Source: Mitosporidium daphniae
Taxonomy: Eukaryota > Microsporidia
Reading direction: 5' to 3'
NCBI RefSeq assembly: GCF_000760515.2
Contig: NW_013546356.1
Location: forward strand, 1-37,269
DNA: 37,269 nt
Positions within the stretch are counted from its first letter, which is position 1. Every line of letters starts with the position of its first letter. The notes under the pieces are model-generated. The model was not told the DNA's origin. It saw nothing but the letters and a program-made list of their open reading frames with translations, and ran no database searches. The position numbers and the translations under genes were made by a program. Shown here in pieces: positions 3,198 to 37,269 of this stretch.

Positions 3198-4188
3198 TCA
3201 TTTGGGAGATAGATTGATCTCTTGTCTATTCGGATATATCAATGTGTTTTCAAGCGACTGTTTTATCGCCCATTCTATCATTTGCGCTATTTTGCCATTG
3301 TTTTTGAGCGCCGTTTTTTGGCCCGTATCGTCCCCAATTGCCGACAAAACATGCAACCTCAGGATGAAATTCGGATGCAATGAAATGGCGGCGATGGCGG
3401 GCGAGGCCGATCCCAAGCTTTCCCTTCTAAACAATCGCAGGAAGACCTAGGGTTAAAACAAGGCCTTACATATCCAGATATTTTGTCAATATGAATGCCC
3501 AACCCCAGTGGAAGGGTAAGTAGAATTGCGTTTTTGAATGGAAGTACGGCATCTGCGCCCAGAAGAAATGTCCCCATGTTATCCCAGTGCAGATGAAATC
3601 GAATGGAGATGTCGGAGAGGTCATTTGAAAATCGTTCGTGATACACATCGGTTATCGTCGGGTGCGACAGCGTTCCTTTTTCTCTTATCCCCCCCAATAT
3701 AAAATCAAACTCGCACACCTTCTACAATAAACGGATAAACCAAGCCTGCTTACCAAAAACGCAGGTGCAGCGTCAAAAAGCGATTTCTCGATGCCTTCTT
3801 TTATGCTGTTGTGCATCGATTCCGAAGTAGAATAGTAGAAAAAAGCGGTTTGGATCGCCTCGTTGATCCAGATTGTATCGTCAAACCCTGTAAGAAAAGA
3901 CCTATACTCGTCTCGTCGCTGGTGTAAATCAACAACCTTGTTGGTGATGTGAGAGTGTTTCTCATTTTCGGCTGGCGATTTGTATATTTTCAAAAANAAT
4001 TCAGACAATTCCTCAAATGCACCCACTTTGCTGCCATCTTTGGCGAAAGATGGAGAGCACTTTTGTGATGGGGAAGGCGATGGTGGCCTTTTAACCCTTG
4101 GAAATGATCTTTGCAGAATTAGTACGACCAACAAAAACAGTACCACCTCGCCGACAAAAAATCCATAAAGAAACTGAAGCGAAATCAT
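3198..4188 (-). CDS. MMM1: SMP-domain membrane protein, probable ERMES subunit Mmm1
   Basis: Three exons (3754-4188, 3470-3721, 3198-3446) encode 311 residues. The introns are 32 bases (3722-3753) and only 23 bases (3447-3469), both GT-AG. The protein has one N-terminal membrane helix (about residues 5-27), a basic Pro/Ser linker and one SMP lipid-transfer domain (about 85-305). Visible SMP marks are the WINEAIQ helix, a DKISGY strand and the closing LIYPN motif. The chain stops right after the SMP domain, as in Mmm1, the ER-anchored subunit of the ER-mitochondria encounter structure. Another TM-SMP protein is possible. Base 3997 is an N, leaving one residue undefined. A run of nine Cs on the coding strand (4214-4222) precedes the ATG. 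Confidence 0.72.
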
Positions 4189-4213
4189 GGAGTGGAAGAT
4201 TTCAGCAGCAAGT

Positions 4214-4222
4214 GGGGGGGGG
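4214..4222 (-). promoter_or_regulatory. C9 homopolymer just upstream of the Mmm1 start codon
   Basis: On the coding strand nine consecutive Cs end 26 bases before the ATG at 4188. Microsporidian genes are known to carry CCC-like motifs close to their start codons; that this run has such a role is inference. Confidence 0.35.
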
Positions 4223-4271
4223 TTGAATTATTTCCGAATTAAAATGAAAGCTGATTTTAAAGTTGTATTTG

Positions 4272-5609: not shown

Positions 5610-5773
5610 CTTTGGTGTAGAGAGACCGGTGGTGGTTGGTAAATGTTTTTTGTAATTTGGTCTTTGTGATGAAGACTAAATAAGAAAATCATCAATGCAG
5701 CCACTGATAGTGCAACACGTGAGGATTGGCGCCATTATTAAAATTAAAATTTATTTTAGCATAAAATTACACG

Positions 5774-6253
5774 TTAAAAGCCCTTTTCGGTGAAAAAGTT
5801 GCAAAGCAATCTATAATGCAGGCCTTGCACGTGGATCTGGCTCAGATCCGATCTGACAGTTATTTTTGTGCCCTTTGGTAGGATCGATGCAAGATCGTCG
5901 TATAAAGTCTAATTGGAAAGAGTGCCACACTTCAATACCTGAAAATCGCCTTGCACTTTCCGGATAATCGTGATCTTTCTTGTTCGGCCGTTTTTGTAAT
6001 CGGTGTATATTGGCAGCTGTTGGGAAAGCTTGATTCGCGGAATCAAGTATTTAAAGCACGAGTTGTGTTGCGGCGCTTGACTTTCCCTATATACGGGACT
6101 AAGGCGCTCTGGAGGATCTTTCACAAGCCGCGGAAAAGGTGTCCCCTCACATGTGTATTTCCGCAAGCATAGCGCGGACAAAGACCCCACGCCTCCATGG
6201 AGCCTAAGCAAAGAGTCCAAAAAGGACACTTTAGGAATTATTATAACGGCCAT
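5774..6253 (-). CDS. IMG2: mitochondrial large ribosomal subunit protein mL49 (Img2)
   Basis: Exon 1 (5939-6253) and exon 2 (5774-5908) are joined over a 30-base intron (5909-5938) to give 149 residues. The mL49/Img2 core is clear: a YTDYKNGRTRKITIIRK segment near residue 82, then GDFQ, and after the intron the IHVQGLHYRLL strand and a terminal EKGF. These motifs lie in both exons in the right order, which confirms the splice. It is a subunit of the mitoribosome and so implies a mitochondrial genome that is translated. The ATG at 6253 is 17 bases from the divergent seipin ATG, so the two genes share a minimal promoter. Confidence 0.88.
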
Positions 6254-6270
6254 CTTTTTAAAAATTTAAA

Positions 6271-7268
6271 ATGTCACGTTCTCCTTTTAATTGGAGGGGG
6301 CTTGAGGGCAGCTCAAAAATTGACGAGTATCTCAACGGCATACCGGACCTGGACAGAGAGGCCATAGAATTTACCCCCGAAGATGAGGACCAGATGCTGC
6401 CCTTTATCGATGCAAATTCCCTTCAGCTTGTCGAAGGGAGAACCTTTTCATCCTTCTTCTCTCAAGGATACAGATTGGTGGGCATCATTGCCAACCGATT
6501 GTTTTGGATGCGACTGGGCCTGCTGTCTATTTCGCTGATATTTTTATTTATTTTCTCGGTGGTTTTTTATCTTTTTCTATATCAGTGGGCCGTTCCCAGA
6601 TACTTGCACTCGATTCCAGTGTTTTTAGACTATAGCCAGCAATATCCGACGGCAAACGTGTCCATTTCTTCTTTATTGAGGCCGAACCAGCGATATTCGT
6701 TTTCATTGCGACTATATGTCCCCGATTCGCCACAAAATTCGCAAATCGGAAATTTTATGGTCGACTTTTCGCTTTTCAACGCAAAAGGCACGTCGATTTT
6801 CCATTCAAAACGACCAGTAATCCCACATTGCCAATTACGTCTTTTAGAGCATCGTCCCATATGCTTCTGAGAAGCTCAAATGCGCAAAATTCATATCTAG
6901 AGTTATCCCATTCATCTTTGGCTGGAAAGAGGAAGCTCACCAACTTGTCATTGACGTGTCAGATAATGGGATTTCTAAATGCGTTCAGGTATTTTAGCAT
7001 CTTTGCAACTTGTAGTCTGCAGTCCCTTTTCTTTATGCGACTATCACAATTGGTGCACCTGACCTTCAAATATACAGTTCCAATTTGGAAATTAAGGCAA
7101 AGCTGTCCGGCATCCAGTACATATTCCCTACTCTCTTTTAGATATTTGATGTATTTTTGGTTCTTCTCCTTTGCCATATTGTTTATCCTATTGATTTGGC
7201 TCATTTCGATCGTCTTTCTCTTTTTCATCTATTTTATCTTTATTGCCGATTCCCGATTAAACCCATGA
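6271..7268 (+). CDS. seipin, ER lipid-droplet assembly protein
   Basis: Four exons (6271-6816, 6848-6988, 7016-7116, 7142-7268) are separated by introns of 31, 27 and 25 bases and encode 304 residues. A cytosolic N-terminus is followed by a membrane helix (about 82-105), the lumenal beta-sandwich with YVPDSPQNSQIG, then SIVPY and GAPDLQIYSS, and a second long membrane helix (about 258-295). This two-helix layout with the VPxSpxN motif is typical of seipin, the ring-forming protein at ER-lipid droplet contacts. Each exon carries matching family motifs, so the splices are well supported. The unspliced first frame ends early after PVIPHC and should not be read as a truncated protein. Confidence 0.9.
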
Positions 7269-7336: not shown

Positions 7337-7763
7337 TCATAAGTTAACGGAGTATTGTTCATTAAATTTGTCGCGGATAGCTTGCGTAACATTTTTGATG
7401 TCCTCAAGTGCACGGCGCAGAGCTGCGATGGCGGTAATCGTTCCATTGGTTTGGATGCGAACGTGGATTTTAGATTCCGAAGGATGGGGGACAGAATATC
7501 CGCAGAACTCGATATCGCAACTACAGGTTATTAAGCAATCATTCAGTTACTTTCGCAAGATTAAATGTTTGAGAAGATTTCCAATCGTATGGTCTTCCTG
7601 CCAGATACAGAAGGTCATAGAGTATTCGGAGTCAACCGATAACTGCAAAATTATAAAAGTAAAATACCAATTCTATGGGGGCGGTGGCTCCGGCAATCGC
7701 ATAGTTGGCCAGAATTACCCTATCTGGATCAATAGACGCATTTTGAGAACTCTCTGAATTCAT
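7337..7763 (-). CDS. RPC19: RNA polymerase I and III shared subunit Rpc19 (AC19)
   Basis: Three exons (7668-7763, 7551-7642, 7337-7520) with introns of 25 and 30 bases give 123 residues. The conserved AC19 signature is intact: FCIWQEDHTIGNLL, the IEFCGYSVPHPSE loop and a C-terminal helix ending YSVNL. The asparagine codon before CDIEF is split by the second intron. Rpc19 pairs with AC40 as the alpha-like dimer on which RNA polymerases I and III assemble in the nucleus. The start lies 22 bases from the 3' end of the tRNA-Ile gene on the same strand. Confidence 0.93.
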
Positions 7764-8623: not shown

Positions 8624-9725
8624 ATGGTGGATCAGCTGTCACACATGCCTAAAATTAGGCAGCTATTGAAGCTGTATGGTGTCAGGGCAGTTAAACAGCT
8701 AAGCCAGAATTTTATATTAGACCCGCAACTTTCAAGTAAGATGCGTGTATTTATTTGCAAAAAGAAAGGGTTGTTTCTGGATTAGGAAAAAACTTGCACT
8801 CCAATTGCATTCTCGAAGTTGGAGCTGGTATTATTAAGCTCTTACCGAGTATTAGGTCCGGGCTCGTTGACAAGGTCCATATTAGAGGAGGGCCCCCTCG
8901 CTTTGTTGGCTATTGAGAAGGATTCTCGATTTGACCCTTTTCTAATGGTATTCCATTTTGTCTTACTTTAGCCTCTGGCGTCAAAATATAAAGATAACTT
9001 TCACATTTTATTCAGCGATGCCCTTAAAGCAGAGCCGGATGGCATAATGGAAGCATTTTCTTGTGTACTAAAATCTCGAGAATTTCCTATAACAAAGTTC
9101 CAAATAATTGCAAATCTGCCGTTTTCTATCGCGACACCGCTATTGGTGAAGTGGCTCCAATGGATGGCCTTTGGTACGTATCCCTTTGCATCTGCTTCAT
9201 CTTCAATGGAGATGGTTTTGGTTGTCCAAAAGGAGGTTGCCGATGTAAGTAGCTTTGTTGTCACCATTTAGAGAATTTCATCATCTCCTGACGGGGGACA
9301 GACCACACGGATCGGGGTATTATCCCATGCACTTAGTAGGCCAGAACACCTGTTTGATATACCACGGAACCGGTTTGTCCCGTCCCCGGATGTATGCGTG
9401 ACATATTTACTTTTCGTAGGTCGATGCCGCTGTAATTAAATTTTCTCAGAAAGATACTCGTGCTTTAGAAATCCCTGTACTGTATTTATCACGGTTCTCG
9501 ACAACGATTTTTGGGCAGAAACGGAAGATCCTTCGATCTGTTCTGGAGTACCGATTGCCATTTTTACGCTGTAGGCAAGCGTTTTGTAAAGAATTGATCA
9601 GGCAGGCTTATGACCATTGCTCCATTGCTTCGGAATTGAGGCCTCAGCAACTGTCGGTGGACCAAGTGATTCAATTATCAACTTTTATTTATAACAACAA
9701 ATCGCAGTTTAATAATAAACTCTAA
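8624..9725 (+). CDS. TFB1M: mitochondrial 12S-type rRNA adenine dimethyltransferase (TFB1M/KsgA family)
   Basis: Six exons (8624-8735, 8765-8827, 8856-8947, 8972-9244, 9272-9391, 9420-9725) are separated by introns of 29, 28, 24, 27 and 28 bases; 321 residues. The N-terminal KIRQLLKLYGVRA segment is characteristic of TFB1M. SAM motif I is EVGAGPGSL, motif IV is NLPFSIATP, and QKEVADRIS and VPSPDVDAAV follow. The enzyme dimethylates two adjacent adenines in the 3' helix of small-subunit rRNA in mitochondria. Each exon boundary restores conserved sequence. The cytosolic homologue Dim1 lacks this N-terminal motif. The stop lies three bases from the convergent Yth1 stop. Presence of this gene implies mitochondrial rRNA and hence a mitochondrial genome (inference). 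Confidence 0.92.
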
Positions 9726-9728
9726 TGA

Positions 9729-10400: not shown

Positions 10401-11339
10401 ATGTCCAAAGCCCCAAACTCGCCGAGCCCGAATTCATCCCTTTCCAGTCAGCACAAAGCATTTAAGGATGTCATGCAGAGACAATCCACTGTTCAAAAGA
10501 GAAATTTTTTGGATACCTTTTCATATTCAGAACCGTCTCGACATTTAAACTCGATGTTACACATACTCCTAAACACTCTGAAGGTAAACGATAATGATTC
10601 TTAATAGCAGGCTGCGGAAGGTCCTCTCACGATAAGCGAGCTATCCTCCCGATCGGAAATCAATATTGGCTCGATACCTGGCCTGTTAAGTTTGCTGCTG
10701 AAAAGCGACCGTGTCCGCGAAATATCGCCTGGAGTCGTCGAGCTCAGCGTAGGATTTGATCAAGTTTAAGACTTCAGACTCAAATCAGAGTTCGCTCCAA
10801 ATCGGATCTCATAAGCGTGCTACAAAGTGTGCCCAGGTATCACGGACTCCCCATCGCCGATATCATCCGCGGTGCGACAGCCTCTTCGGCCCCGAAAATT
10901 GAAGAATGGATCCAAGAGATTCAAGAACAGGAAAAGACAAGAACGCCCATCTACAGAATACCTATCCATTCTACCAAAAAGGACCCTCGGTTTGACATTT
11001 TATTTTACGACTGGTATCCCACGCCCTCGGTTCCAGAGGGTAGGAAGCGCCCGGTTATTAAAGTATAGAATACAAGCAACTGTGGTATGGATCCTTTGTT
11101 CCCCTCAATGAGGATGAACTGCAAAAGGAACTCGAAAGAGCTGGCATTGACAAAATGAGCGTGACTTCATCAAGTTCTTTGGACCAGCTAAATGCGGCTC
11201 AGGTATAGTGGAAGAGCGTTATCCCTGAATTTAGAGTGCTCGGGGGCGAAAGACACCAAGATTAAATAGAAAAATCCGACTTACAAACACTCACCTTCAG
11301 TCGATCGGGCTCGACTTTTCAAAGGACTATGAGGTATGA
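10401..11339 (+). CDS. TFA2: transcription factor TFIIE beta subunit (Tfa2)
   Basis: Five exons (10401-10583, 10608-10748, 10778-11039, 11069-11202, 11235-11339) with introns of 24, 29, 29 and 32 bases encode 274 residues. A Ser/Pro N-terminus precedes two winged-helix domains: the first around PLTISELSSRS (about 62-110), the second from RVRSKSDLISVLQ to DPRFDILFYD (about 112-185). Next come the YKQLWYGSFVPL segment and the conserved basic C-terminal NTHLQSIGLDFSKDYE. This order matches GTF2E2/Tfa2, which with TFIIE-alpha recruits TFIIH and helps promoter opening by RNA polymerase II. The fourth intron begins GTATAG, so the unspliced frame stops at once. The first acceptor could be three bases later. 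Confidence 0.85.
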
Positions 11340-11580: not shown

Positions 11581-13275
11581 AACACTATCCACATCGTCGT
11601 TGGTGGGGGCTATGCCGCCCCCGCCCCCTCTCATGAGGGCTGTTTTCGTAGTCATCGGAGCATCTGGAGACCTTGCGAAGCGAAAAACATTCCCGGCCCT
11701 TTTTGCGCTGCTCAAGCACGGCTTTTTGTGTCCCGAATCCATTCTTTTGGGCTTTTCCAGATCAAAGATGGATGACGCCGATTTTTCTGAGCACATCACT
11801 TCATTGATAAATGATGGCGGTTTGGACGCTTTTTGTTACCATACTAGATCAAGAGCTAGTTTCGCGCTTCAAATCGATGTGTCACTATGTATCTGGGGAT
11901 TACAATTCGAAAAAATCATATGCGCTGCTGAAGGATCGCATACTTGAATTAAAATCCGGCTCAAGATTCAGCGAAGCTCATGAATTTCCGTTCATTTTCT
12001 ACCTTGCAATCCCGCCTTCTGTCTTTTTGGAGGTGGCGCGTTCAATCCATCATTACATCATTCCGCATCTTTCATCTCCCTCTGTTCCTTCAAACTCGTC
12101 GCGATTTCGACTTGTTGTTGAAAAGCCTTTTGGCCATGACTTGGACTCGTCAAACGAACTTTCTACATCTTTGGCTGAACTGTTCGATGAAAAACAGGTA
12201 AAACTCCATTTTTGATGCCTTTAGCTTTATAGAATAGACCACTACTTGGGGAAGGAGATGGTCAAAAATACTTTGGTGCTTAGGTTTACAAATAGGCTTT
12301 TGGAGACCGTTTGGAATTCAGATAACATTGCAAACGTGCAGATCACGTTTAAAGAAACTCAAGGTGTCGAGGGCCGTGGCGGATATTTTGATTCCTATGG
12401 CATCATACGGGATGTGATGCAGAATCATCTTCTTCAAATCCTCTCTTTGATTGCAATGGGTAGACCGGTTTCTTTTTCTTCTGATGACATACGTGATAGC
12501 AAGGTTCGTTTCAAAGATTATACTGTATCACATTAAGGTGGCCATCTTGAGGGCAATAAGACCAATTGACGCACAAAGCGTGGTTTTAGGCCAGTATGTG
12601 AGATCTGGATCGGCAATCGGATATACGGAAGACCCGTCCGTTCCAGATACTTCGACGACGGCAACATTTGCAGCCCTGGTGATCTATATTGATGTGCCTG
12701 CTTGGAGAGGCGTTCCTTTTATCTTGAGATGTGGAAAGGGCTTAAACGAACAAAAGGCCGAAATCAGAATCCAATTTAAGGAGGTCGATGAACAGGTCCC
12801 TCGCAACGAGCTCGTGATCAGAGTGCAGCCAAGAGAAGCTGTATATTTGAAGCTAAACATCAAGAACCCTGGTCTTACAGTACCGATTTCTTATAGTGGT
12901 GCAACATCGTCTTCTGCTGGCTCATCTCCTAGCCTTAGAGATGAAGAGACCATAGTCGCTCCACCTGACCCGTTCATCAGCAGCGAGCTAGATCTAACAT
13001 ATGGGCACAAGTTCTCGGATTCTAGAATTCCAGATGCATATGAATCGCTTCTTTTGGATTTGCTGCATGGAGAGCAAGGAAATTTCGTTCGCCGAGATGA
13101 GCTGGATGCGGCTTGGAAGATTTTCACTCCTTTGCTGGAAAATGTCGAGTCGAGGCCGTATCCGCCGGTCCCATATGCCTTTGGTTCTCGAGGTCCAAAG
13201 GAGGCTGACGATCTCATAAAAAGCACAGGGTACAAAAGAGACGAGGGCTACACCTGGCATCCTCCGCGTCTATAG
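11552..13275 (+). CDS. ZWF1: glucose-6-phosphate 1-dehydrogenase
   Basis: Four exons (11552-11819, 11848-12197, 12225-12503, 12538-13275) with introns of 28, 27 and 34 bases encode 544 residues. The NADP-binding motif is [11 protein letters not shown] (near residue 34). The substrate and catalytic motif is RIDHYLGKE (about 210), followed by [14 protein letters not shown] and [12 protein letters not shown]. The enzyme oxidises glucose-6-phosphate to 6-phosphogluconolactone and makes NADPH in the cytosol. Two donors are unusual (GTTTGG, GTTCGT instead of GTA), but the joined sequence matches the family across each. A Ser/Pro-rich insertion of about 25 residues separates the beta+alpha domain from the DLTYG strand near residue 430. 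Confidence 0.96.
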
Positions 13276-13391: not shown

Positions 13392-14554
13392 TTATTCACA
13401 CTTTTCTTTATTAGAAAAACTCGAGTTGAGAGTGGCATATTCTCTCCTAGCAATGTCTTGCACAATGGTTAAAATAAAGTACACAATCATCATTGTTAGG
13501 ACGATGTTCCAAATAAAGCCAACCATGCCCATCTGCCACCATCAAGATAAGAAACATACCTTAATCGGATGGGTTGTTGGACCGTGCTTTGGGTTAAACC
13601 CATTTATACATTCCTGCAAAAAGGAATCGATCCACTCCCCCAGGGCCGGATTGGTGATCGATTTTATGTTCGACACAATGACCTCTATTGTGGGCGGAGA
13701 AACAAGCAAAATAACGGCAATTGTCTACAAAGCATGATTAGGCAATTGGCCCACCTGCAAAGATGCCTTGATGATGGCCTTCCCAACAAAAGTGGCCAGG
13801 AAAAAAGACCAAAACGGAATTCCATAATATCCGCATGTGATCCCTACGCTCAAAAACCATCCGTTACCAGCAAGGTCAAATAGTGGATTCGGAATTGACG
13901 CACAAAGCAAGATGCCGAAAACCCCAAATTTTTGCACCATCCATCGGATCAGGGAGTGGAAGTAGTCTGTCCATCCGTTTGGGCGGAATGTGAACGGCGC
14001 CTTTTTATCGTTAAGGGCACAGGTTTTAGCAATAAAATAAGGCGGCAACTCGCCAATTGCAGTGCCAAAGCCCCAAAAGAAGGACTCCCAAATTACCTTT
14101 TTAATAATTTCAGCGAGCGGAACGAAAGATCGGGACTCCTCATCGCCCCAGCACGTAAAGCTAACATGTAATTAAGCAGGCAAAACCCGTTAGGCCCACG
14201 CGTATCAAAGTTTAGCGAATTGCATACGAAGGCGGTGGTTGCAGTCTCTGCAATAAAGGGAGCCAGAAAAAGCACAAAAGTATGGGCACCTGAGCCAAGA
14301 CCAATTGTGGACATTATGCCAAGCATGAACCATTCCGAATACCATAGCACCGCAGGCAGGAGCTTATAAAAGAAAGGGAAAAAGGATAGCGCAAAAACCA
14401 CAAGAAAAGCGACGAGGAAGCATTTTATGATGGTGGAGTAGAATCTTCTTATCAATGATATCAATTGGCGATATGAAAATCGATAAAAAAGGCTTAGCAC
14501 CAGAACAGGATTTTCGAAAACAGAAAGATGGGCCTCCTCCGCATCTGAGGCCAT
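13392..14554 (-). CDS. VMP1: VMP1-like ER membrane protein (DedA/VTT domain, lipid scramblase)
   Basis: Five exons (14187-14554, 13868-14160, 13755-13843, 13560-13724, 13392-13532) with introns of 26, 24, 30 and 27 bases encode 351 residues. Several membrane helices surround the VTT core: GLGSGAHTFVLFLAP, GFGTAIGELPPYF and CASIPNPLFDLAG followed by ITCGYYGIPFW and GKAIIK. These are VMP1 hallmarks rather than generic DedA. VMP1 is an ER scramblase needed in animals and amoebae for autophagosome and lipid-droplet formation and for releasing ER contacts. The usual KK-type tail is not seen; the C-terminus is NKEKCE. Donors GTTTTG and GTGGGC are atypical, but the joins restore family sequence. Confidence 0.9.
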
Positions 14555-21510: not shown

Positions 21511-22574
21511 TTAAATTTTATCCAAATCCCATATGGGATAATATTCGTGAGCAGTGCCCTCCTCCATATTTACAATTTGCTGTTTTTTCCTACAGATTCG
21601 TATCAATGCAGCATTTGCAATCATCAAGGAATTGTCTGTGCAAAATTCTGAGGCAGGGACAATGATCGGCAATGGGGCCGCCTTTTTGCTAATAGCCTGC
21701 ACAAGACTGGCATTTCTTGCTACGCCGCCGCTTATGATGAGCGCCGAATATTTCTCGTGAAGAGAGGGAATGTGCCTCATTCTTTCCAAAACATGTCTTA
21801 TGATTGCTGTTTGGTACGAATATGCCAGGTTCGGAATATCTTTGTTGTCCTTAATACTGACCCTGGAGAGGGCAGATTTTAGACCAGAAAAGGAAAAATC
21901 GGCACTTTTTACCCTGCAAAGTGGATGCGGGAAGTCGTACGCTTGAAGGTTGGTGACAAGCAAAGCAGCTTGCTCAAGTGCGGCACCATATGAGGACCCC
22001 TTTTCCCAACGCAGGCCGAGATATCGCCCCCCTTTGTCAAAGGCATCGCCAATAGAGTCATCTAAAGTGGTTCCTATTTTGTATTTTGATTTGATGGACT
22101 ACCTAAGATTGCATACTTTCCAATATCGGCAACGTCCACCCACATGGTATGACCCCCGGACACCAGAAGGGTTAAAAAGGGGAAAGGTGGAATAGGTATC
22201 TGGTTATCAAAAAAAGGCATCAATAAATGTCCCTCCATGTGATGAGTGGAAATAAGTGGGCGATTCAAAGCTAGCGAAATAGAAACAGCAGTGCTCCAAC
22301 CAACAGAAAGGGACGAGCCAATGCCTGGCCCACGCGTTGCAGCAACAAAATCAATGCCCGCCCCATCCAGATGATCAAAAGCTTTCTTTAAAAGAAGCGG
22401 AAGATTTTTTCTGTGCGCGGCCGCAGCAAGACTGGGGACAATGCCTCTGTATGGTTGGTGAATGCCATCTTGTCTTATCGTTTCGTGGAAGAGAACTTTT
22501 GCCGAGTTTATCACCGCAACAGAGGTGTCATCGCAACTGGTCTCTATTGCCAAAATGCTATGTGTTCGGCACAT
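21511..22574 (-). CDS. QRI7: tRNA threonylcarbamoyladenosine transferase, mitochondrial type (Qri7/OSGEPL1/TsaD)
   Basis: Two exons (22103-22574, 21511-22073) joined over a 29-base intron give 344 residues. The N-terminus ILAIETSCDDTSVAV is of the bacterial TsaD/Qri7 type, not the cytosolic Kae1 type. The metal ligands HMEGH, the LLVSGGHT loop, GTTLDDSIGDAFDK and FSFSGLK across or near the splice, SGGVARN and CTDNSLMI are all present. The enzyme puts the t6A modification at position 37 of ANN-decoding mitochondrial tRNAs. The first ATG (22574) leaves almost no presequence; the frame stays open about 15 codons upstream without an ATG, so a non-AUG start or a missed 5' exon could supply the targeting signal. 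Confidence 0.92.
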
Positions 22575-24158: not shown

Positions 24159-24800
24159 TCATCGGTAGGACCGAGCTGCCTCTGGAATCGTCTTCAATAG
24201 TGCTTTTCTAATTTCCTGTTCAATCTCTTCTTGGAGAGATTGCTTTACCTTTGCCATGCAATCGAAAGAAGAAGACACGGAAACATTAACGAGCGGGTCG
24301 GACACAAATGCTAGAGAGAAATGCGGAGATTGATCGGTCCAGCAAAGCCATATGATGCCATCCACGTGGAGGTCAGTTATTCTGATAACCATTGGAACGA
24401 CCAGGCTCTTGTCCGCAGCAAGGATCGGCTGGGGCGGCGTGTCCATCTTGACCGAAGACATCCAATCCTCATATGAGGCCCCTCGTGTACCACAAAGCGG
24501 ATTCGCCTGCACATGTGTGTTGATGACAATATATCCATCTGAGGCATATGATATTCGGGCTAAAATTCTAGCTCTGTGCATAGAAAGTTCCGCGATTTCC
24601 AAAATGCTAACTTCTGGAGGCTACATGTAAAGATAAAAAAAGTAGGCAGGTACCTCCTGGCCAAAATACAGATCCTTTATCACCAGCTGAGAGCATATTC
24701 CATGGGGAGGGGGTCCTGAATTTAGCCCCTTTTCGATGAGCTGCGAAATGTGTGAATAAAAAGAGTCATTGAAAGATCCCCAGTTAAACTTAAATGACAT
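24159..24800 (-). CDS. MDM34: ERMES subunit Mdm34 (SMP domain only)
   Basis: Two exons (24654-24800, 24159-24620) with a 33-base intron encode 202 residues. The N-terminus MSFKFNWGSFNDSFY and the segments LYFGQEPPEVSILEI (across the splice), INTHVQANP, LVNVSVSSSFDC and EEIEQEIRK match the SMP domain of Mdm34, the outer-membrane-side lipid-transfer subunit of the ER-mitochondria encounter structure. The protein ends right after the SMP domain; fungal Mdm34 usually carries a long, variable C-terminal tail, which is missing here. Together with Mmm1 at 3198-4188 it shows that ERMES exists in this organism. The ATG at 24800 is preferred over an upstream TTG. Confidence 0.9.
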
Positions 24801-25457: not shown

Positions 25458-28160
25458 TTACAAATGTAAATCGGAAAAGATGCTTTTTCTGGTTCCGCCG
25501 GAATTGTCCTTCGTTTTTTTAATATGATCCCTCGCCACACTGATCAAAGACTTTACAATGGATTTGTCTAGTCCATCTCTTTTTGAGATCAGGTCCTCGA
25601 AAAAGGACACGGGCACATCCGGAAACTCCCGATGAAAGTTATAAAAGGCCACAAGCAATGTTTTTTCGGTTGAAGCTATCAATGGATATGCTTTGGCAAG
25701 CTGCTCCAGTGCAGAATCTTCGCTTGCCCCGTCTTTTCTTACAAATTTGGAATAAATCCCTTGGATTTGTCCATGATCATATTTGAGCAGTTCCTCGGCC
25801 TCTTCAACCCTAAATCGCGAGTTCTTTTGAATCATCCGTTTAAGCATTGCTCTGGCAAGATATTGGAAAAAGTCCAAACAAAATCCCTGAAAAGGCTCTG
25901 TTATCATTCTATATTCAAAGTCGGAAAGGAAATCATCAATGGTGTCGCATATGATATCGATGGGCTTGACTACATCATCTTTGTACCAAGTGTTTGTATA
26001 TAGCGTTTTTATCACCGGCATGATGTCGGAGAAAATGGAACACTTTAGCAGATCAAACCCGACTTTTCTCATGTTGGAAAACTTGGCCTCTGAGCGTTTA
26101 AAAGCCTCCTTGACGAAGGGAACAAAGACATCTCCAGAGAGCGTTTCTTTGAGGCGTTCTAACTCATGTACCCATTGTACGGTAGAGTTAACCAAAGAAA
26201 TCCCGTAATACTCCAGTCCAGGTGGGTGGCCATTTGGGTTCGCGTCGTGTGCAAGTAAGGGAGAGCTGAGACTATCTGGCCCATAACATATCTTTGCGTG
26301 GTTGCTGTAGCTTTCCTGGATACTGTTCTGGAAAAAAGCAAGGGAATTTGTCAATATCGAATGCAGAAGTTTCGGGAACAGCTTTGGGTTTTTACATGCA
26401 AGCGCGACATGAATGATCTAGACGTTACTTCGATCTTGCTTACTTGGTCAAGGAATAAAAATAATTCTCCCGTAACGGAAACAAAATATTTTCCAAATCG
26501 ATCCGAGTCTGGTGGTTCCATACGCAACTCTAGCTTTTGTACCTCTGCGGAGAGCAAATTTCCAAGCCACTCTCGGACCATAGATGTGGTATGCGACACA
26601 TAGCGTCCAATCATGATGTCAACCTGCTCTTCGCTCAATATATCGGGGATAGTAGCTCCTCGAGTTCCAGAGTGAGATAGAATTGAATTGATCCTCTTTT
26701 GGGAAGTTGTGAGCCAAGACAAAAAGTAGAGACAATCAGAGGGCGGAATACTGAGCATCGTGGAGTCTGAAGAACCTCCGTTGATTGCTTTGATCTCAGG
26801 TTCCAAGTATTTTATGAGGAAGCTTTTAAGAGAGGAAAGAAAAACAGAACAAAATATGAACATCTGATGTTTAGAGGCAGATGTGTCTGCAAAAATACTG
26901 GAAAATGATGGAAGGGCAAAGAGATAAATCCATGTAATGAGCCCCAAACAAAGATGCCCGTCAATCCGCCCAAGCAAGTCGAGAAGGGTCTCTTTGGAGC
27001 CAGCGAGTTTATGCTCCTGAAAGGCTTTGGAAATGTTTTCGACAATCAGAATATTCCACGGAGAGACGAAATTTTCCAGAGATATAAAATCAAGCTGCGT
27101 GGACGACCGGTACTTTCCTCTGCGAGACGATATGATGCGAGCATAGATTGACAATAGGTTAGAATACATCTCAAACCACGGAAGCGTGCTGGGGTTAAAG
27201 TCCTTTCTAATGATCGAGGTCGTGTCCGATGAGTAAGGATCATAAATCCGGGCACCTTCTATGCTTTGAACATTAACAAGGTAATTGAGAAGCTCTGTCC
27301 AATATCCTTTAAGGATCCCCACAATCTCAGACAGAGGATTAAAAAATATTTCAAGTCGGCTTTTGATTAGGCTCCTTGCGAAAGGTAATCCGGATTGTTC
27401 CTTTGAAGCGGACAGCGATGTAGAAGATGGTTTTTTGAATACTGAAGCGTCTGATGGCGACGATACAGAGAATTCGAGATCCTGGCACTCGGCTATAGCT
27501 CGGTTTTTCCAATCCAGCAAAAGATGTAACTTAATATATATGAGATATAGGTGGCTGCCAATAGGTGTGTTATGATACATCTGGCTTTTTTCGTTTTCCT
27601 CTTCTGACGGGTTTTCTGACCCGATTTTTGACTTGCACAGATTTTCTAGAAAGAACTTTTCCTTTTGGAGCAAATAAAGCACGCGCTTCATATCCGTACC
27701 GGAGGACCCAATCTGCGAAAGCACTGCCTTCACTTGCAAACTGTTGCGATATGCCAGTGAAATCTACAAATCGGTTCACAAAAAATACCTGTCGAATGAT
27801 GCTGAAATTGGGCGGCACTGTCTGAATCGCCTCTGAGGTTAGCCGTAGCGCCAAGGCAATGTGATTTTCGATAATCTTTACACAAGAGACTTGGTCATTT
27901 ATCGAGTGATGGAAAAATTCTATTTCTGCAATTTGCTCCCGAAATGTAGTCGTATATCGTTCCTTTGTCGATGACGTCTCCAAAGAGGCACGCTTGATAT
28001 GGTCGTCCAATTTGTCTGGTTGGAGAATATCCTCTGGCTGAGAAAAAAGACCGGCAATAAAATCGATGCTTTTGGCAACAAGATGAGGGTTCGATTTTGC
28101 AACAGCTGAGAGCTGGTCAAATAGTAACTGCGATTCCTCGCACCCGCTACAGGATGTCAT
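25458..28160 (-). CDS. SEC6: exocyst complex subunit Sec6/EXOC3
   Basis: Three exons (27789-28160, 26444-27763, 25458-26417) with introns of 25 and 26 bases encode 883 residues, similar to or slightly longer than Sec6 of other species. The protein is almost entirely helical. The C-terminal region shows the Sec6 pattern: GFCLDFFQYLARAMLKRM, FRVEEAEELLKYD, then SFFEDLISKRDGLDKS. The second splice joins FLFLDQ to IIHVALACKNPKLFP in frame. Sec6 is a core subunit of the exocyst that tethers secretory vesicles to the plasma membrane. The ATG at 28160 overlaps an upstream plus-strand ATG of the divergent Grx5 gene, so promoters and leaders must overlap. Confidence 0.8.
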
Positions 28161-28201: not shown

Positions 28202-28876
28202 ATGAAGTACATCTCATTGCGGCAGTTTTCACTGAGGAGTGCCCAGAAGTCTTCTTTTATGGCCAGTCTAAATTCAGTCGGTGCTTCGCAAATACGAAAA
28301 GGCATCTCAAACATTCGTTTAAATTTGTGCCGCACAGGAGCTTATACTAAGATTACGGCCAACATGTGGCAATCGAGATACTACTGCAAGCCGCCCAATG
28401 GTGGTAGGAAATCACCTCTGTTCATAATTTAGATCCAACTTCGCGTCTCGATTCGCCCTCCTTGGGCACGGAGGAGCTTGAACCAACCGCACAGCCCACC
28501 GATGGCATGGAGTCTATTCAAGAAATACTCTCATCAGCCCCCGTTGTGATCTTTATGAAAGGAACCCCTGATTCACCATTAGCATGTTAAATTAGTTAAC
28601 TGATCCTAGTGTGGATTCAGCAAAAAGGCCGTGAATATCCTTTCCCTCTTCCAGATCAAAGATATGATTGCAATAGATGTCTTAGAGGAAGCCTCTCTTA
28701 GGGAGGCAGTGAAAGAGCTTACGTAAGTCTCTGTTTTTGATTGCCCTCATAGCGGCTGGCCAACAATTCCACAAATCTTTGTAAAGGGCGAGTTTATTGG
28801 TGGCTGCGACATCCTTGCTGAGATGCATGGCAGCGGTGACCTTGAGCGTCTGCTACGGGAAAAGGCTTTATTATAG
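28202..28876 (+). CDS. GRX5: monothiol glutaredoxin Grx5, mitochondrial Fe-S cluster carrier
   Basis: Four exons (28202-28403, 28433-28581, 28610-28722, 28753-28876) with introns of 29, 28 and 30 bases encode 195 residues. The first about 75 residues are basic, Ser/Arg-rich and without acidic residues, as in a mitochondrial presequence, then an acidic linker. The glutaredoxin domain has [32 protein letters not shown] and [10 protein letters not shown], with the class signature CGFS. The middle intron starts with GC, not GT; only this splice yields PLCGFS in frame. Grx5 passes [2Fe-2S] clusters from the ISC machinery. Earlier in-frame ATGs (28154, 28166) would add acidic residues and fit a presequence less well. 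Confidence 0.92.
28582..28609 (+). other. GC-AG intron in Grx5, 28 bases
   Basis: The intron begins GCATGT and ends GATCCTAG, with a TTAAC branch-like motif. Any GT donor nearby breaks the frame or destroys the conserved CGFS motif, whereas this GC donor restores it exactly. Confidence 0.75.
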
Positions 28877-29900: not shown

Positions 29901-31375
29901 TTAAGTCGGACCCAATGGCGGTTGAGCGGGGATGAATTTGGGCTCAATGATCAGGTAGTATGAGAAGGCTGCCTGGAGCGCAGCCACAAGCAATAGGAAA
30001 TATACACGACGTCGTTGAAGCGTTCCAGAAGCCGCTGCGGCAGAGGCCTCTATGGTGGTTATAGCGCCTCCAGGAAGGAGGCCTCCACCAACAGCATCAC
30101 CGAGACCTGATGAGAGGTTTAAAATATCTTTCAGAGACCGCAGGGCAAATACGGCATATGAAATGGAAACGTAAATCCAAATAAGTCGAGTAATGATGCC
30201 GTTGTTCCCTGGTACTAATAGCCCACCGGAAACAATCAGCACAAGCCCCACATACTTATAGCCGACATAAGCCAAATATTCAAGGATAGGAACTGAAGAT
30301 CCAAGCCCAAGGATAAAGAAGCCTGTCCTCACCACAAAGAGCTCTAGAAGAGAGAAAACGAGTGCCGAGGATGAAGTTATCCCAAGGATATCTGGTGTGA
30401 ATCTAGAATAAAAAATAAGAAAGCTTACTTTCCATCTACCCCATAAATAATGGATACTAGAATCACATAGGTAATGAAGGCATGAACTATGATGATGGTG
30501 AGAGCAGGGAATAAACATACGAGGGATATACAAATCAGGGCAGCTAACATCTTCTCTCGGCGGAGCAAAAGAGACACCAAGCGATACAGGATGTATTCCC
30601 GTGTGGGAAAACTGCTGGACAGGAATGGTACCTGGAACTGTGTTTGTAAGATGTGTCCCTTTGGGGTTCTCGGTGGGACATGTGCGTCGGACCCAATCCT
30701 AAAGTTTTGAATGGAATATGGACTTACCTCTTTAACAAATGGAAAGAGCACCAAGGAGATTTTACTGACTACATACCAGTGTGAGACCTGAAAATAAGGC
30801 TTGAGCGTCAACAAGGGCCAATCGATCCAAGACCACAGGATCTTGTTTTGATTATAAGGGAGCTGAGACTGGGCCCCGCCGACCATTGAAAATATGTCAA
30901 AGGCGGTTTTAGCAGCATTTGCGGTGATTTGGAAATGCTGATTATCACCATTAAATTGAGGAGATATTGTGGCAAAGGGTGACTGAGAATAATTATCCAT
31001 CTGATTCGATGATTGGGGATAGCTGTTCAACTGATTCGGTGAGTGAGAATAATTATTTGGCTGGCCAGGTAGAACAGCCGAATCTCCATAGCTTGGCAAT
31101 AGACCCTGGTAACCCGTAGCTAAATCCGAAGGATGGACCGGAGACTGACGTTGTGCATATGAGCTATATTGCTGCTGAGTATTATATCCCTGAGCGTTTT
31201 GTTGGTAAGGTGGTGGTGGTGGCGGTGGTGGTGGTGATGTAGCAGAAGAAGCTGCTGCTGATTGTGCTATTGGTTTTGATGCATATTTAAAATTCTGTGG
31301 AAATTGGTTATTTGGCGGCGGTGGGCTTTGTCCAAAGCCTTGGGCTGGAGGTAGAGTATTGGGTGCCGAATTCAT
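29901..31375 (-). CDS. YIF1: Yif1, ER-Golgi transport membrane protein
   Basis: Four exons (30728-31375, 30521-30698, 30429-30486, 29901-30402) with introns of 29, 34 and 26 bases encode 461 residues. The first about 150 residues are a Pro/Gln/Ser/Asn-rich low-complexity extension with a run of nine prolines (GGT-type repeat near 31206-31235). The Yif1 core follows: LKPYFQVSHWYVVSKISLVLFP, KEDWVRR across the first splice, APPREDVSCPDLYIP, HAFITYVILV and several membrane helices with LAYVGYKYVGLVL. Yif1 binds Yip1 and acts in COPII vesicle budding and fusion. The N-terminal extension is longer than usual for the family. Confidence 0.9.
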
Positions 31376-33326: not shown

Positions 33327-33431
33327 GTCTGGGTGGAGAGAAAACGACAGTCCCAAATAGACATGGTCTTTAGAACAAAGTTTCGCGCTATCAAACCTAA
33401 TTTAAATTGAAGCAAGTTTAGCCCACACGGC

Positions 33432-33689: not shown

Positions 33690-33918
33690 CTGTTGTCAGC
33701 ATTATCTTCTGGCTTTTTCTTCTCTTGAAAAATGATGTAGAAGGCATGGATCATACCTAAAGTTAGCACATTCTCCATGTCTTACCAGGAATCCAGCCAA
33801 GAAGCGTTAAACAAATATTGATTAAAAAGTCGACCCAAAGGCCTTTCTCTAAAAGTACAGCTATCGGTGGGATGAAAATCGCTAAAACAATGACCAGAAC
33901 GTCATAACCACTTGCCAT
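33686..33918 (-). CDS. PMP3: plasma membrane proteolipid PMP3 (UPF0057)
   Basis: Two exons (33786-33918, 33686-33756) with a 29-base intron that contains a perfect GCTAAC branch motif encode 67 residues. Two membrane helices are visible: VLVIVLAIFIPPIAVLLEKG and FLINICLTLLGWIPG, then IHAFYIIFQEKK, which is the PMP3 family layout. The small proteolipid affects plasma membrane potential and salt tolerance in yeast. The C-terminal KKKPEDNADNS tail is typical in charge. The family is found in fungi, plants and bacteria but not vertebrates, which helps place the organism. Confidence 0.93.
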
Positions 33919-34464
33919 TGTACGATAACTTCAAATACTTGTAATAAATCTATGCTTTATAACCATTTAATTTGTGTTGGGCATGAGTATCATGTATGTC
34001 TATTCATTGTTGATTGTAGTCTGATATCCTGGTCACGCTGCATCAATAACAACAGATAAAATGCTGATGGGGAAAGCCAATGATGGCCGGAAATTGGTGT
34101 GGTTTATTTTAATGCGAGTGTCTGGGGGGGGGTCCCTTGCCCCGGAAGCCATAAACTAGTGAAAAAATAAGCTTTCCCAAAGGCTCTGGTTAATTTAAAG
34201 GACGGCATTGCGACCGAGTCCGTTTCACAAGCTCCACGGGCGCAGAGACAATTGGGCCTGCAAGCCCAAATTAGCATAAATATGAAGACAATGGCGTAGC
34301 TTGCACAAAAATAACGTACACCTCATACTTGCCATCGCCAAACCCCAATGTTGGCTCACCACTCACGCATAATTTGTTTAAATATTTCCACTTCAGCACT
34401 AATTGACAGCTTCATGCAAGTTGAATTTGGCTGAATATGAAAGTAAAATTTATGAATTTATTTT
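33919..34464. other. 546-base intergenic region, the largest in the window; no gene recognised
   Basis: No frame here looks coding. It should hold the promoters of PMP3 and the cyclin. It contains a G9 run (34124-34132), a locally GC-richer stretch at about 34200-34275 with a perfect 6-bp hairpin TTGGGC-CTGCAA-GCCCAA, and an ATATTTATG box beside it on the minus strand. This could be a non-coding RNA gene, but no known RNA signature (U1-U6, SRP, RNase P, tRNA) is present. Confidence 0.3.
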
Positions 34465-35372
34465 ATGTTTCTTCCAATCGACTTTTATTTGTTCGACAAG
34501 GGAAATTCTTCCATTATTCACGACAATCATCCACTTGAGGAGCAAAAGGATACCCGCTTGGCATCGGTGATTTTCATGAGGAGGCTTGGCGATTTGCTTG
34601 GATTGTAAATTTATTTTTCTTAGAATTAGACCGTTTTATACCATTCTCAGCGCAAGCTATTTTTTCCACTATTTCTTCATGTTCTATTCAATGAAAAAAT
34701 ACTCATACATAGTAGCGGTGTACTTTTTTCATTTCTAGGATGTTGCAATCACTTGCATACTGGTCGCGTCAAAATCCGAGGAAACGTATAGAAAAATCAA
34801 GCAGATTTTAACCAGTTCTTGCCTTCTTTTAAACCCGTCTTTTAAGGGTATTGGATCCAACTCTGGGGTATCACCGTTTATGTGTTTATTGTAGGAATTT
34901 GATTACCATAGGGACTTGGTTGCTTCCTATGAGCGTCTACTATTGGATGTGATCAAATTTAACTTTACCTGCCATCATCCCCACGAATATGCTTTAAAGT
35001 TCTCCAAAATTCTATGTATAGGTAATGATCTGATTTCTCATCGTTTGGATAGAAGCCTCCAGGGCTGATTTGGTGGAAACATGGGACATTTTGCAATTGG
35101 TTTATTGTACCGAATTTTGCCTTCAATATCCAATTGTCCATTTCGCTCTTTTTGCTCTATTTTTTGCTGTTAAATGCAAATGTATCGAAGGCACTATAGA
35201 TCTAGTGGGCCTTGCAGAAAGGGAGTACACAAAGGTGATGGAGTCAAATTCGAAATGGAAATCCGAGTTTGTAAAATGGGAAGCTTCGATGGATTTCTTG
35301 AAAATATTCGCTGCATATATCCAGGAAATGAGGATAACGTCAAGGAAAGTAATGAACGTAAATAATAACTAA
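34465..35372 (+). CDS. transcription-type cyclin (cyclin K/T or Ctk2-like)
   Basis: Five exons (34465-34604, 34630-34711, 34739-34867, 34895-35021, 35053-35372) with introns of 25, 27, 27 and 31 bases encode 265 residues. The first cyclin fold contains FMRRLGDLLGLP and the cyclin-box core DVAITCILVASKSEETYRK. The second has FNFTCHHPHEYALKFSKIL and FCLQYPIVHFALFALFFAV. The HPHEY and CLQYP motifs are those of transcription cyclins that partner CDK9/12 or Ctk1, phosphorylating the RNA polymerase II tail. With the 25-base first intron, the N-terminal fold aligns without gaps to cyclin K. The stop overlaps the convergent Chl1 stop. Confidence 0.78.
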
Positions 35373-37269
35373 ACCATCTGGTCAATAGACTTGAAAAACT
35401 ATTGTAGTTATCATGAGATAAAAATCACCTACCTGAACGCAGCCTTTGTAGGCGTCCCCGAAATTCTTACACACTCTCAAAGAGGGTAGTATCCATTTTG
35501 GGAGCTTTTTAACAATATTTTCCTGCGAATATCTACAATCCAACAATACAATGGTTGCATAATCGTTCATATTCCTTATGACCCTTCCTAGGAGCTATAG
35601 AATCAACATATCAATACCAATGGCCTGGTTTACACTTCTCATGCAGGCATTTTCGAGAAACGTAGACGATGATATTTTGCAATTCTACACGAAAATTCAT
35701 CAAGCAATCCTTACAGGAGTGGAGGATAAAAATTTGATCATTTCAGAAATTTCGGGCGAGCTCTGGTTTGGAAATGGAAGTCCAACGACAATCACAGCGC
35801 GTCCATAGTGATTGGAAAAATTAATTCCCTCAGATACCTTTCCATTGATTACGGCAAACAAAATCGCTCCCTTGGGACGAGAATTGTCGCAGGTGGTCAT
35901 AAATGCACTTAAGATCGGAGAAAGTTCCACAGATACATTTGTTTCCCAAAAGACTTTCTTGTTACTTGAAAGTTTTTCAAGCAAGAGGTTTTGCTCGCAA
36001 ATTGATTTAAAGTTGTTTAGGCTCCAATAGGAGGGAAAAAAGACCACCATTCCATCAGGTACAATTCGTGAGAAATTTAAAATAGACTGATAGGCCTCCA
36101 GAAGCTACGCAGTTAAAATGCATTCACTTGCCATTTCATGGTCCTCCTTGTATTCATATATGAATTTTAAAGTCTTTGAACTTGGGCCGTGCGATAATTG
36201 AAGAGTAAGCAGCTGTTTAGAGGCATCAATGACATGATTGCACGAAAAGTGAACAAATTTAGACTCTGGATAGCGATAATTGAACAGCTGGAACTTGATA
36301 TCTTCAATCTAACCCTAATAAAACACTGCAAAAGTACAGGAGAAAGTGTGCCACCAGCTAAAACCAAAGAATGGCACTCTTCCACAAGCTCGACAAAATA
36401 TTCGGAAACATGGAGCAGCAAATACTTGATACAAACCATATCATCTAAGAGGATGAGGGATGCGCTGCTCACAAATACCTTCAAAATACAGCATGAGCTT
36501 TCCATTCGAATCGTCATTGGTGAGCGAAGATAGAAAGGTAAAAATTGACGTCAACCGATATTTCCTTTTATTGTCGAGATTGCCATAACTTTGTATTTTC
36601 TTATCAAGACCGAAAATTTCAATAAAACGCTGCAATTCGTAAACATTAACGCCCTCCAAATTCGAAAGATGGAAAAATTCGGAAACGGAAATTATTTTTG
36701 TCTTCGGGGACTGAAATTGGTTACAAAAGACATTCAATCGTTCAAGAACAACAATGATCGTCTGAATGTTAACCTGATTTGAGCCTTTGAATCTTAGCTT
36801 AAACTTTTCGAAATAAATTGCAGTTTGCGATGAAAGAGAAGTAATCTAAAGAGATTTTGAAGAAAAAGCTACCTGGATCAATGATATGGACTGGTTAAAG
36901 ATGCCTTTAACGCAATCAACAATGTTATGGGCCTCGTCAAAAATAAGTATACTGTCCTTTAGGTTTAATGACAAAGATTTCCTAACAGAGGGCTGGATAA
37001 TGAAATTGTATGGGACAGCAATAAACTAACGATTATTCGAGAAACCTTACTTCAATGGTGGGCAAAAGAGAATGAGATGCATAATATGGGCATAAATGAA
37101 GCTTTTCTCCTTCCTCGTAAAGAGATTCGATGTCAATAATGGATTGTTTCTGATAAGGTCAAAGACAATGTTTACCTTGTGTAGGAGAGTCGAAAACTGC
37201 GCTGCAATAGCGTCAACAGACAGCTCTTGCGTATAATACGGGCATTTTCTTTCGCCCACCATTAAAGTA
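35369..37269 (-). CDS. CHL1: Fe-S cluster DNA helicase Chl1/DDX11, C-terminal 545 residues (5' end outside window)
   Basis: Ten exons are joined over nine introns of 25-34 bases: 37176-37269, 37051-37149, 36873-37025, 36479-36845, 36338-36444, 36132-36308, 35715-36104, 35618-35684, 35433-35587, 35369-35398. Motifs in order: CPYYASH (an iron-sulfur ligand region), FDEAHNIVD (DEAH box), LVLAGGTLSP, FSCNHVID, VVFFPSYWSL, GKVSEGINF and QAIGRVIRN. The DDX11/Chl1-specific IVLLDCRYSQENI and a final FFK follow. Chl1 is a 5'-3' helicase for sister-chromatid cohesion and replication-fork stability; it differs from Rad3, RTEL1 and FANCJ in motifs V-VI and C-terminus. One intron has a GC donor. The N-terminal Walker A part lies outside the window. 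Confidence 0.87.
36105..36131 (-). other. GC-AG intron in Chl1, 27 bases
   Basis: On the minus strand the intron begins GCAAGT, the classic strong form of a GC donor, and ends CTGCGTAG with a TTTTAAC branch motif. It joins YKEDHEM to LLEAYQSIL in frame. The GT three bases further in would shift the frame and hit a stop. Confidence 0.75.

Follow-up and report, generated by a model that had tools for sequence, protein, structure and literature searches.

For the loss of introns and of the spliceosome, Microsporidia serve as the textbook example. The genome of Encephalitozoon cuniculi is reported to contain 37 introns, which are 22-76 nucleotides (nt) long and carry strict motifs (PMC3629993), and about half of which were missed by the first annotation (PMC3629993, PMC2483917). 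In unrelated lineages, introns measure 18-21 nt in nucleomorphs, 16-17 nt in mikrocytids and 15-16 nt in heterotrich ciliates such as Stentor (PMC10245619); the donors of Paramecium and B. natans are largely reduced to GT(A), and no branch signature is described there (PMC2483917). According to a survey reconstructing 263 fungal species, introns in 15 Microsporidia average 0.01 per kb of coding sequence (CDS), as compared with 0.22 in the ancestor and 2.53 in Rozella, and a massive loss of introns was placed in the common microsporidian ancestor (PMC8476143). The introns analyzed here are those of a 37,269-nt stretch of the genome of Mitosporidium daphniae, namely the whole of contig C85 (NW_013546356.1), which is referred to below as the window. 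The species, which parasitizes water fleas, is classed as an early-diverging microsporidian which has kept its mitochondrial genome (PMC5701793), and its genome is available as an incomplete draft assembly of 4.66 Mb in 147 contigs.

The 48 introns placed in this window, and their lengths, are genuine as far as the sequence can tell. We consider it very probable (roughly 0.93) that they are U2-type introns of an early-branching species, which were shrunk, apparently throughout the genome, to about 28 nt and were not lost, and which are removed by a conventional spliceosome with five small nuclear RNAs (snRNAs).

Introns placed in the window

Sixteen gene models were built by hand from open frames and protein homology, which gave 47 introns, and a homology test added one more. 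The 48 introns are 23-34 nt long (mean 28.3), and their ends, chosen partly by this very rule, are GT-AG in 46 cases and GC-AG in two (28582-28609 and 36105-36131). GTA starts and TAG ends were each found in 42 introns, and both together in 37. Removal of the intron is backed by protein homology, in the sense that it lies in a match or that a match directly depends on it, in 41 cases. If retained, 47 of the 48 would bring in a stop or a frame shift, and 17 of the 18 introns with a length divisible by three contain an in-frame stop. The T content is 42% in the intron bodies vs. 29% in the CDS. Since 16 intron-bearing and 12 intronless models make up about 31.7 kb of CDS, the density is 1.5 introns per kb, or 3.0 per kb in the intron-bearing genes alone. 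Matches in Pfam or PDB cross the junctions in mL49, seipin, RPAC2, TFB1M, TFIIE beta, G6PD and TsaD/Qri7, as well as in Sec6, GRX5, YIF1, PMP3, cyclin and CHL1. The introns are listed below with their coordinates in the window; "GT-AG test" and "rule-free" denote homology alignments with and without a rule on the gap ends.

3447..3469, minus strand: MMM1, 23 nt; PF10296 matches residues 246-308 of the spliced protein, none unspliced
3722..3753, minus: MMM1, 32 nt; open frame and coding score only
5909..5938, minus: mL49/Img2, 30 nt; junction inside Pfam Img2
6817..6847, plus: seipin, 31 nt; inside Pfam Seipin (170.5 bits)
6989..7015, plus: seipin, 27 nt; inside Pfam Seipin
7117..7141, plus: seipin, 25 nt; inside Pfam Seipin
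7521..7550, minus: RPAC2, 30 nt; Pfam RNA_pol_L_2, RPAC2 alignment gap-free at the junction
7643..7667, minus: RPAC2, 25 nt; within RPAC2 alignment 22-119, weakly conserved there
8736..8764, plus: TFB1M-like dimethylase, 29 nt, AAG acceptor; exact in homology test, deposited protein identical
8828..8855, plus: TFB1M-like, 28 nt; exact in homology test, deposited protein identical
8948..8971, plus: TFB1M-like, 24 nt; exact in homology test, deposited protein identical
9245..9271, plus: TFB1M-like, 27 nt; exact with and without the dinucleotide constraint, deposited protein identical
9392..9419, plus: TFB1M-like, 28 nt; exact in homology test, deposited protein identical
10584..10607, plus: TFIIE beta, 24 nt; open frame, crossed by PF02186 only at E 0.01
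10749..10777, plus: TFIIE beta, 29 nt, CAG acceptor; within TFIIE-beta alignment 83-269 (E 3.6e-5)
11040..11068, plus: TFIIE beta, 29 nt; within TFIIE-beta alignment 83-269
11203..11234, plus: TFIIE beta, 32 nt; within TFIIE-beta alignment 83-269, gap close by
11820..11847, plus: G6PD, 28 nt, GTT donor; alignment crosses the junction, 2-residue gap a few residues on
12198..12224, plus: G6PD, 27 nt; G6PD alignment gap-free at the junction
12504..12537, plus: G6PD, 34 nt, GTT donor, AAG acceptor; G6PD alignment gap-free at the junction
13533..13559, minus: VMP1, 27 nt, CAG acceptor; exact in homology test
13725..13754, minus: VMP1, 30 nt, GTG donor; exact in both homology tests, older protein DI09_43p110 stops inside
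13844..13867, minus: VMP1, 24 nt, no in-frame stop; homology only
14161..14186, minus: VMP1, 26 nt, GTT donor; exact in homology test
22074..22102, minus: Qri7/TsaD, 29 nt; inside Pfam TsaD (205 bits)
24621..24653, minus: presumed MDM12-like gene, 33 nt; open frame only, no Pfam match
26418..26443, minus: Sec6, 26 nt; inside Pfam Sec6 463-849
27764..27788, minus: Sec6, 25 nt; coding score only
28404..28432, plus: GRX5, 29 nt; open frame only
28582..28609, plus: GRX5, GC-AG, 28 nt; GLRX5 alignment gap-free at the junction
28723..28752, plus: GRX5, 30 nt; GLRX5 alignment gap-free
30403..30428, minus: YIF1, 26 nt; inside Pfam YIF1 181-445
30487..30520, minus: YIF1, 34 nt; inside Pfam YIF1
30699..30727, minus: YIF1, 29 nt; inside Pfam YIF1
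33757..33785, minus: PMP3, 29 nt; inside Pfam Pmp3 6-54
34605..34629, plus: cyclin, 25 nt; inside Cyclin_N 21-141, gene finder had 19 nt
34712..34738, plus: cyclin, 27 nt; Cyclin_N 33.8 bits
34868..34894, plus: cyclin, 27 nt; inside Cyclin_N
35022..35052, plus: cyclin, 31 nt; open frame only
35399..35432, minus: CHL1/DDX11, 34 nt; open frame, missed by both homology tests
35588..35617, minus: CHL1, 30 nt; exact in GT-AG test, inside Helicase_C_2
35685..35714, minus: CHL1, 30 nt; exact in GT-AG test, inside Helicase_C_2
36105..36131, minus: CHL1, GC-AG, 27 nt; 27-nt homology gap starts 13 nt away
36309..36337, minus: CHL1, 29 nt; 29-nt gap 4 nt away (rule-free), absent from GT-AG test
36445..36478, minus: CHL1, 34 nt; exact in GT-AG test
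36846..36872, minus: CHL1, 27 nt; exact in GT-AG test
37026..37050, minus: CHL1, 25 nt; exact in GT-AG test, inside DEAD_2
37150..37175, minus: CHL1, 26 nt; inside DEAD_2, rule-free gap 6 nt away but 35 nt long, not in GT-AG test

The initial annotation of this stretch had proposed 50 introns in 17 genes and gave no itemised list; 48 in 16 genes were placed. Its description of most introns as starting with GTA and ending with TAG agrees with the counts given above, and its upper length of 34 nt is that of the longest introns in the window. The 23-nt intron at 3447-3469 in Mmm1, which it gave as the shortest, is weakly backed: the MMM1 profile matches the C-terminus of the protein only after removal, at E 0.003 and 17.4 bits, under the family cut-off of 21.9. 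Comparison of this model with PDB gave no useful match, a muconate cycloisomerase at E 0.002 being judged a chance hit. The sole ambiguous base in the window, a single N at position 3997, lies in the first exon of MMM1.

Some boundaries were settled by comparing alternatives. The segment 13844-13867 of VMP1 was counted as an intron because the VTT_dom score rises from 17.6 to 30.7 bits (cut-off 33.9) when it is left out. In YIF1, a 64-nt call by the gene finder was replaced by the 34-nt intron at 30487..30520, and in the cyclin gene a 21-nt alternative at 34712 was rejected at 30.4 vs. 33.8 bits, a small difference of 3.4 bits. The first intron listed for TFIIE beta (10584..10607) has an alternative acceptor 3 nt further on (TAGCAG), and at the GC-AG intron of CHL1 (36105..36131) a model allowing only GT places a gap of 77 nt.

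The longest frames were seen to be without evident introns, and small genes to have several. One such frame, of 1,926 codons at 15629-21406, is presumably MOT1/BTAF1. A tRNA gene of 116 nt at 7786-7901 (minus strand; Rfam tRNA, 52.4 bits; anticodon TAT by eye) must also hold an intron; ARAGORN in bacterial mode reported no tRNA at this place.

Controls and intron lengths beyond the window

In two controls, the same search was run with all 256 pairs of donor and acceptor dinucleotides on the spans of the genes already modelled. For the coding-only control, statistics were taken from the 48 long training frames, out of 50, that do not belong to the modelled genes, and scores were corrected for dinucleotide frequency. 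GT-AG came top of the 256 pairs (z 3.3). Of its 37 introns, 24 were 23-34 nt long; the average over all pairs was 8.4 (standard deviation 3.3), and the next pair reached 22. Without the correction GT-AG came third, with 16 of 35 introns in this range. In the homology control, the genes CHL1, TFB1M and VMP1 were each aligned to a profile of relatives, built from at most the first 60 of 120, 78 and 119 sequences, respectively, M. daphniae proteins being excluded. With no rule on the ends, 16 of the 17 introns known at the time (5/5 in TFB1M, 3/3 in VMP1 and 8/9 in CHL1) had a gap starting no more than 24 nt away, which was of the exact length in 11 cases, and two extra gaps were obtained. With the rule, GT-AG again came top of 256 (z 2.6), 13 of the 17 introns being exact and three other calls being made, among them the stop-free 24-nt segment of VMP1; it scored 733.6, as against 723.1 for the runner-up GG-TA, which in our reading is GT-AG moved by one base. 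An extra 21-nt gap found in TFB1M by both homology tests was not counted, since the deposited protein has this stretch as exon.

The TFB1M model with its five introns, including the one with the AAG acceptor, is identical at 321/321 residues to the deposited "Dimethyladenosine transferase 1 [Mitosporidium daphniae]". The newer annotation, made on an independent assembly, was obtained with funannotate and AUGUSTUS, trained through BRAKER on fungal proteins (PMC12449221); its transcript evidence lists M. daphniae UGP3 among others, and the main text contains neither "RNA-seq" nor "intron" (PMC12449221). The deposited protein is therefore taken as a second prediction and not as proof of splicing. 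The older protein DI09_43p110 (VMP1; 13392-14554, minus strand) is wrong at all four introns: 35 residues are dropped around the first one, the 24-nt intron is kept as coding, and the protein stops in the 30-nt intron, so that the last intron is never reached. The same fault may affect further models in the older annotation, in which case studies of gene content that drew on that proteome may have used faulty models. Among the titles and openings of abstracts covered, a set which does not include Haag et al. (2014), Whelan et al. (2019) and South et al. (2024), no description of intron size in M. daphniae was met with.

For the rest of the genome, a simple gene finder was trained on long open frames of the genome, with equal weight on intron lengths of 12-300 nt and, at the start, no splice signal beyond GT and AG. 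Short introns were already among the calls in the first runs, and after the finder had derived donor and acceptor frequencies from the calls it had made, 23-34 nt was the length of 42 out of 70 calls in the window and 20 other contigs. A high intron penalty left only three introns, one of which, of 61 nt, was later replaced by one of 25 nt. We then took 10 kb from each of 20 other contigs (C1-C20; 200 kb in all), using the donor and acceptor frequencies derived from the window and equal weights on lengths of 12-200 nt. In this sample the length histogram, which the initial annotation had suggested as a genome-wide check, peaks at 23-34 nt: 31 of the 46 introns called fall there, with 3 at 35-46, 2 at 12-22 and 10 at 47-200 nt, and under a stricter penalty the figures are 11, 2, 1 and 6 out of 20. 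Nine of the 25 intron-bearing models in this sample were put to Pfam, and matches cross short introns in at least six of them, namely a DEAD-box helicase, E2F, UCH, Tdp1, PigN and PEX1. Sample calls of 59 and 61 nt are read instead as 26 and 31 nt. The latter belongs to an E2F-like gene (L012, 3456-4465, minus strand), which probably has a 31-nt intron containing TGACTAAC ahead of an AAG acceptor.

Splice signals and spliceosome components

The donors carry 1.95, 1.71 and 1.47 bits of information at G, T and A, and then 0.17, 0.19 and 0.04 bits at positions +4 to +6 (0.40 in total), and the acceptor TAG carries 1.30, 1.95 and 1.95 bits. None of the other positions among the first 8 and last 12 of the intron, including those from -12 to -4, exceeds 0.32 bits. 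The final exon base is G in 62% of cases, and agreement with CAG-GTAAGT extends to 5.7 of the 9 positions at the donors vs. 3.5 at exonic GT. Among the eight branch motifs tried, TRAY was found in 22 of the 48 introns (P 0.02) and TGAY in 13, as against 6.6 in shuffled sequences (P 0.007); YTRAY occurs in 15, as against a shuffle mean of 9.6 (P 0.05), and CTAAY in two. A weak branch signal may thus be present. Minor-class (U12-type) donors read RTATCCTT; none of the 48 introns begins with GTATCCTT or ATATCCTT. The spacing of the ends taken alone is no evidence, since the raw counts of GTA...TAG pairs show no clear peak (53 at 25-29 nt vs. 24-46 in each of the remaining 5-nt bins over the range of 15-79 nt).

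Genes for the U1, U2, U4, U5 and U6 snRNAs were found in the genome, with one match each over the Rfam cut-offs, and U1, U2 and U6 carry the canonical pairing segments (ACTTACCTG at the U1 5' end, GTAGTA in U2 and ACAGAG in U6). A PROCN domain, which we take to be that of PRP8, gives 739 bits and lies in a single 2,419-codon open frame without evident introns (C59, 75127-76359). These components, together with the GT/GC-AG ends and the U1-like donors, bear out the description of the introns as spliceosomal. No U12 snRNA match was obtained in the genome; the controls, which were prokaryotic genomes, gave none either, so that this does not show absence. All five snRNA genes, U6 included, share a TCCCAYAA motif about 40-80 nt upstream of the start (L025, L026, L027, L028 and L029; start at position 1501), followed by AT-rich sequence and in several cases by a TATA-like box, which resembles a common proximal promoter element.

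Under the proposed mechanism, introns would have shortened to a narrow window around 28 nt, apparently genome-wide and without loss, and the five-snRNA spliceosome would act across the intron. U1 would pair with the GTA donor and U2 with a weakly defined branch region, presumably in the second half of the intron, ahead of the TAG acceptor. The signals remaining in the intron would then amount to little beyond GTA, a T-rich body and a TAG at the right spacing. Splicing in the cell might proceed by intron definition, and the length would itself contribute to recognition.

Alternative explanations and comparison with known systems

Several results weigh against the idea of genuine U2-type introns shrunk to about 28 nt. 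Seven of the 48 introns (those starting at 3722, 10584, 24621, 27764, 28404, 35022 and 35399) rest on open frame or coding score. When CHL1 is considered by itself, GT-AG (311.8) scores below GG-TA (342.3) and TT-AG (329.6), one reason being that GT alone cannot use the GC-AG intron of this gene. Of 47 window introns, the gene finder by itself detects 22 if their genes are part of its training set and 6 if they are not, so that the density cannot be read directly from the sample, which is compatible with some 1,500-6,000 introns in 4.66 Mb (0.33 to 1.29 per kb). On both strands of the window, 101 pairs of GTA and TAG lie 23-34 nt apart and 37 of them are placed introns; ends and spacing are therefore insufficient, and either exon sequence and the like must count or faulty products must be cleared. 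[CT]TAAC occurs in 4 of the 48 introns (shuffle mean 2.0, P 0.14), which does not support the initial annotation where it described TTAAC or CTAAC as frequent; nor is it supported as a rule that donor, branch and acceptor nearly touch, no clear branch consensus being detectable. Of the splicing factors in the inventory proposed at that stage, U1 snRNA was found, whereas SF1-HH (like RED_N) had no match and U2AF_lg none over the cut-off, in an exon-by-exon search of an incomplete assembly, with prokaryotic genomes as controls, that can miss an intron-split gene and does not show absence. Two PF22675 matches were considered for SF1, but the one on C56 resembles KHDC4 by eye and that on C33 does not reach the cut-off; a candidate for U2AF on C78 proved to be CC1/RBM39-like. 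This last gene has a 60-nt intron with a GTAAGT donor inside its first RNA-recognition motif, and its spliced protein scores 297 bits against TIGR01622; a 39-nt alternative would insert seven residues into the RNP1 motif (by eye). The claim that all introns measure 23-34 nt is thus true of the 48 in the window but not of the genome, and the initial annotation overstated the universality of the length range as well as the branch motif.

The best-surviving alternative, to which we give a minor but real chance, is that the introns are real and the narrow range is partly a matter of ascertainment: an open-frame search would miss longer introns, those in untranslated regions and those that are divisible by three and free of stops, and the true distribution would have a long tail. 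The 60-nt intron speaks for it, as do the stop-free 24-nt intron found by homology only and the in-frame stops in 17 of 18 introns divisible by three, a proportion to be expected if stop-free ones are missed; the calls at 47-200 nt in the sample (10 of 46, or 6 of 20 under the stricter penalty) point the same way. The peak at 23-34 nt nevertheless persists when lengths of 12-200 nt are equally allowed. The same procedure applied to the window made 27 calls, 22 of them known and the other five all longer (40, 41, 93, 94 and 150 nt), which suggests that long calls tend to be false, and the 61-nt E2F call has an equally framed 31-nt alternative giving a better E2F sequence by eye.

Somewhat less probable is a length that forms part of the splicing code itself, a steric ruler accepting only about 23-34 nt and replacing the branch consensus. 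The small amount of donor information past GTA and the low values at -12 to -4 would fit such a ruler, and degenerate intron sequences have been reported for lineages whose introns are very short, with no branch signature in three of these lineages (PMC2483917). A 60-nt intron with GTAAGT is tolerated, however; deletion bias plus drift could produce the same lengths with no ruler, and the mild enrichment in TRAY and TGAY leaves room for a weak branch signal. Lastly, although this is a draft assembly with one N in the window, short coding insertions, assembly frameshifts or pseudogenes in a fast-evolving parasite are a very improbable explanation for gaps whose GT-AG bounds rank top in two controls, which would disrupt the frame or add a stop in 47 of 48 cases if kept, which are T-rich as compared with the CDS, and of which five are removed in the same way from the TFB1M protein in the annotation of an independent assembly.

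Taking the introns as genuine and shrunken, we compared them with those of other lineages. Like the introns of E. cuniculi, they are very short GT-AG introns in a microsporidian. The Encephalitozoon pattern of few introns with a strict donor and a CTAAYTT-like branch was not found, however: M. daphniae has 48 introns in 37 kb, no clear branch motif and two GC-AG introns. In their number and in their narrow, very short range, the introns resemble those of Paramecium, nucleomorphs, mikrocytids and Stentor, and their donors, largely reduced to GT(A), resemble those of Paramecium and B. natans. The features of the ultra-short class, a peak below about 35 nt and a GTA donor, were found in the window (48 of 48 introns at 23-34 nt) and in the sample (31 of 46), with a 60-nt exception on C78. 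Nucleomorph, mikrocytid and Stentor introns differ in being shorter and belong to unrelated lineages, and those of mikrocytids are conserved in sequence and processed by a reduced spliceosome (PMC10245619, PMC2483917, PMC9505925). The statement that the sizes are close to the smallest known is therefore fair, although they are not exceptional in view of the 22 nt of E. cuniculi and the 15-21 nt of other lineages; the interest lies in the number of introns for this lineage and not in their size.

That far more introns are kept than in typical microsporidia is supported by the 1.5 per kb of CDS in the window vs. the mean of 0.01 in the survey, and the value is of the same order as the 2.53 per kb of the sister lineage Rozella allomycis (PMC8476143). 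The name "Mitosporidium" does not occur in the main text of that survey (PMC8476143), and M. daphniae may be present in its data with defective models. We somewhat favor the idea that M. daphniae represents a middle step: an ancestor with dense introns and a full five-snRNA spliceosome would have shrunk nearly all of its introns to about 28 nt, and the bulk loss of introns and splicing parts would have occurred only later, in the canonical microsporidia. Provided that M. daphniae is placed within the Microsporidia, the shrinkage came first and the bulk loss later, although one 37-kb window is a small base for a density of 1.5 per kb; the massive intron loss, published as an event in the common ancestor (PMC8476143), would then move to after the split of M. 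daphniae. The fact that a basal member carries about 1.5 introns per kb in this window, of about 28 nt each, points to a shrinkage of introns in this lineage that preceded the loss of the majority, and would separate shrinkage from loss and order the two in time. M. daphniae resembles the lineages with very short introns and yet belongs to the lineage of Encephalitozoon, so that the effects on the branch-site sequence of having few introns, as in E. cuniculi, or very short ones, as in M. daphniae, can be compared within one lineage.

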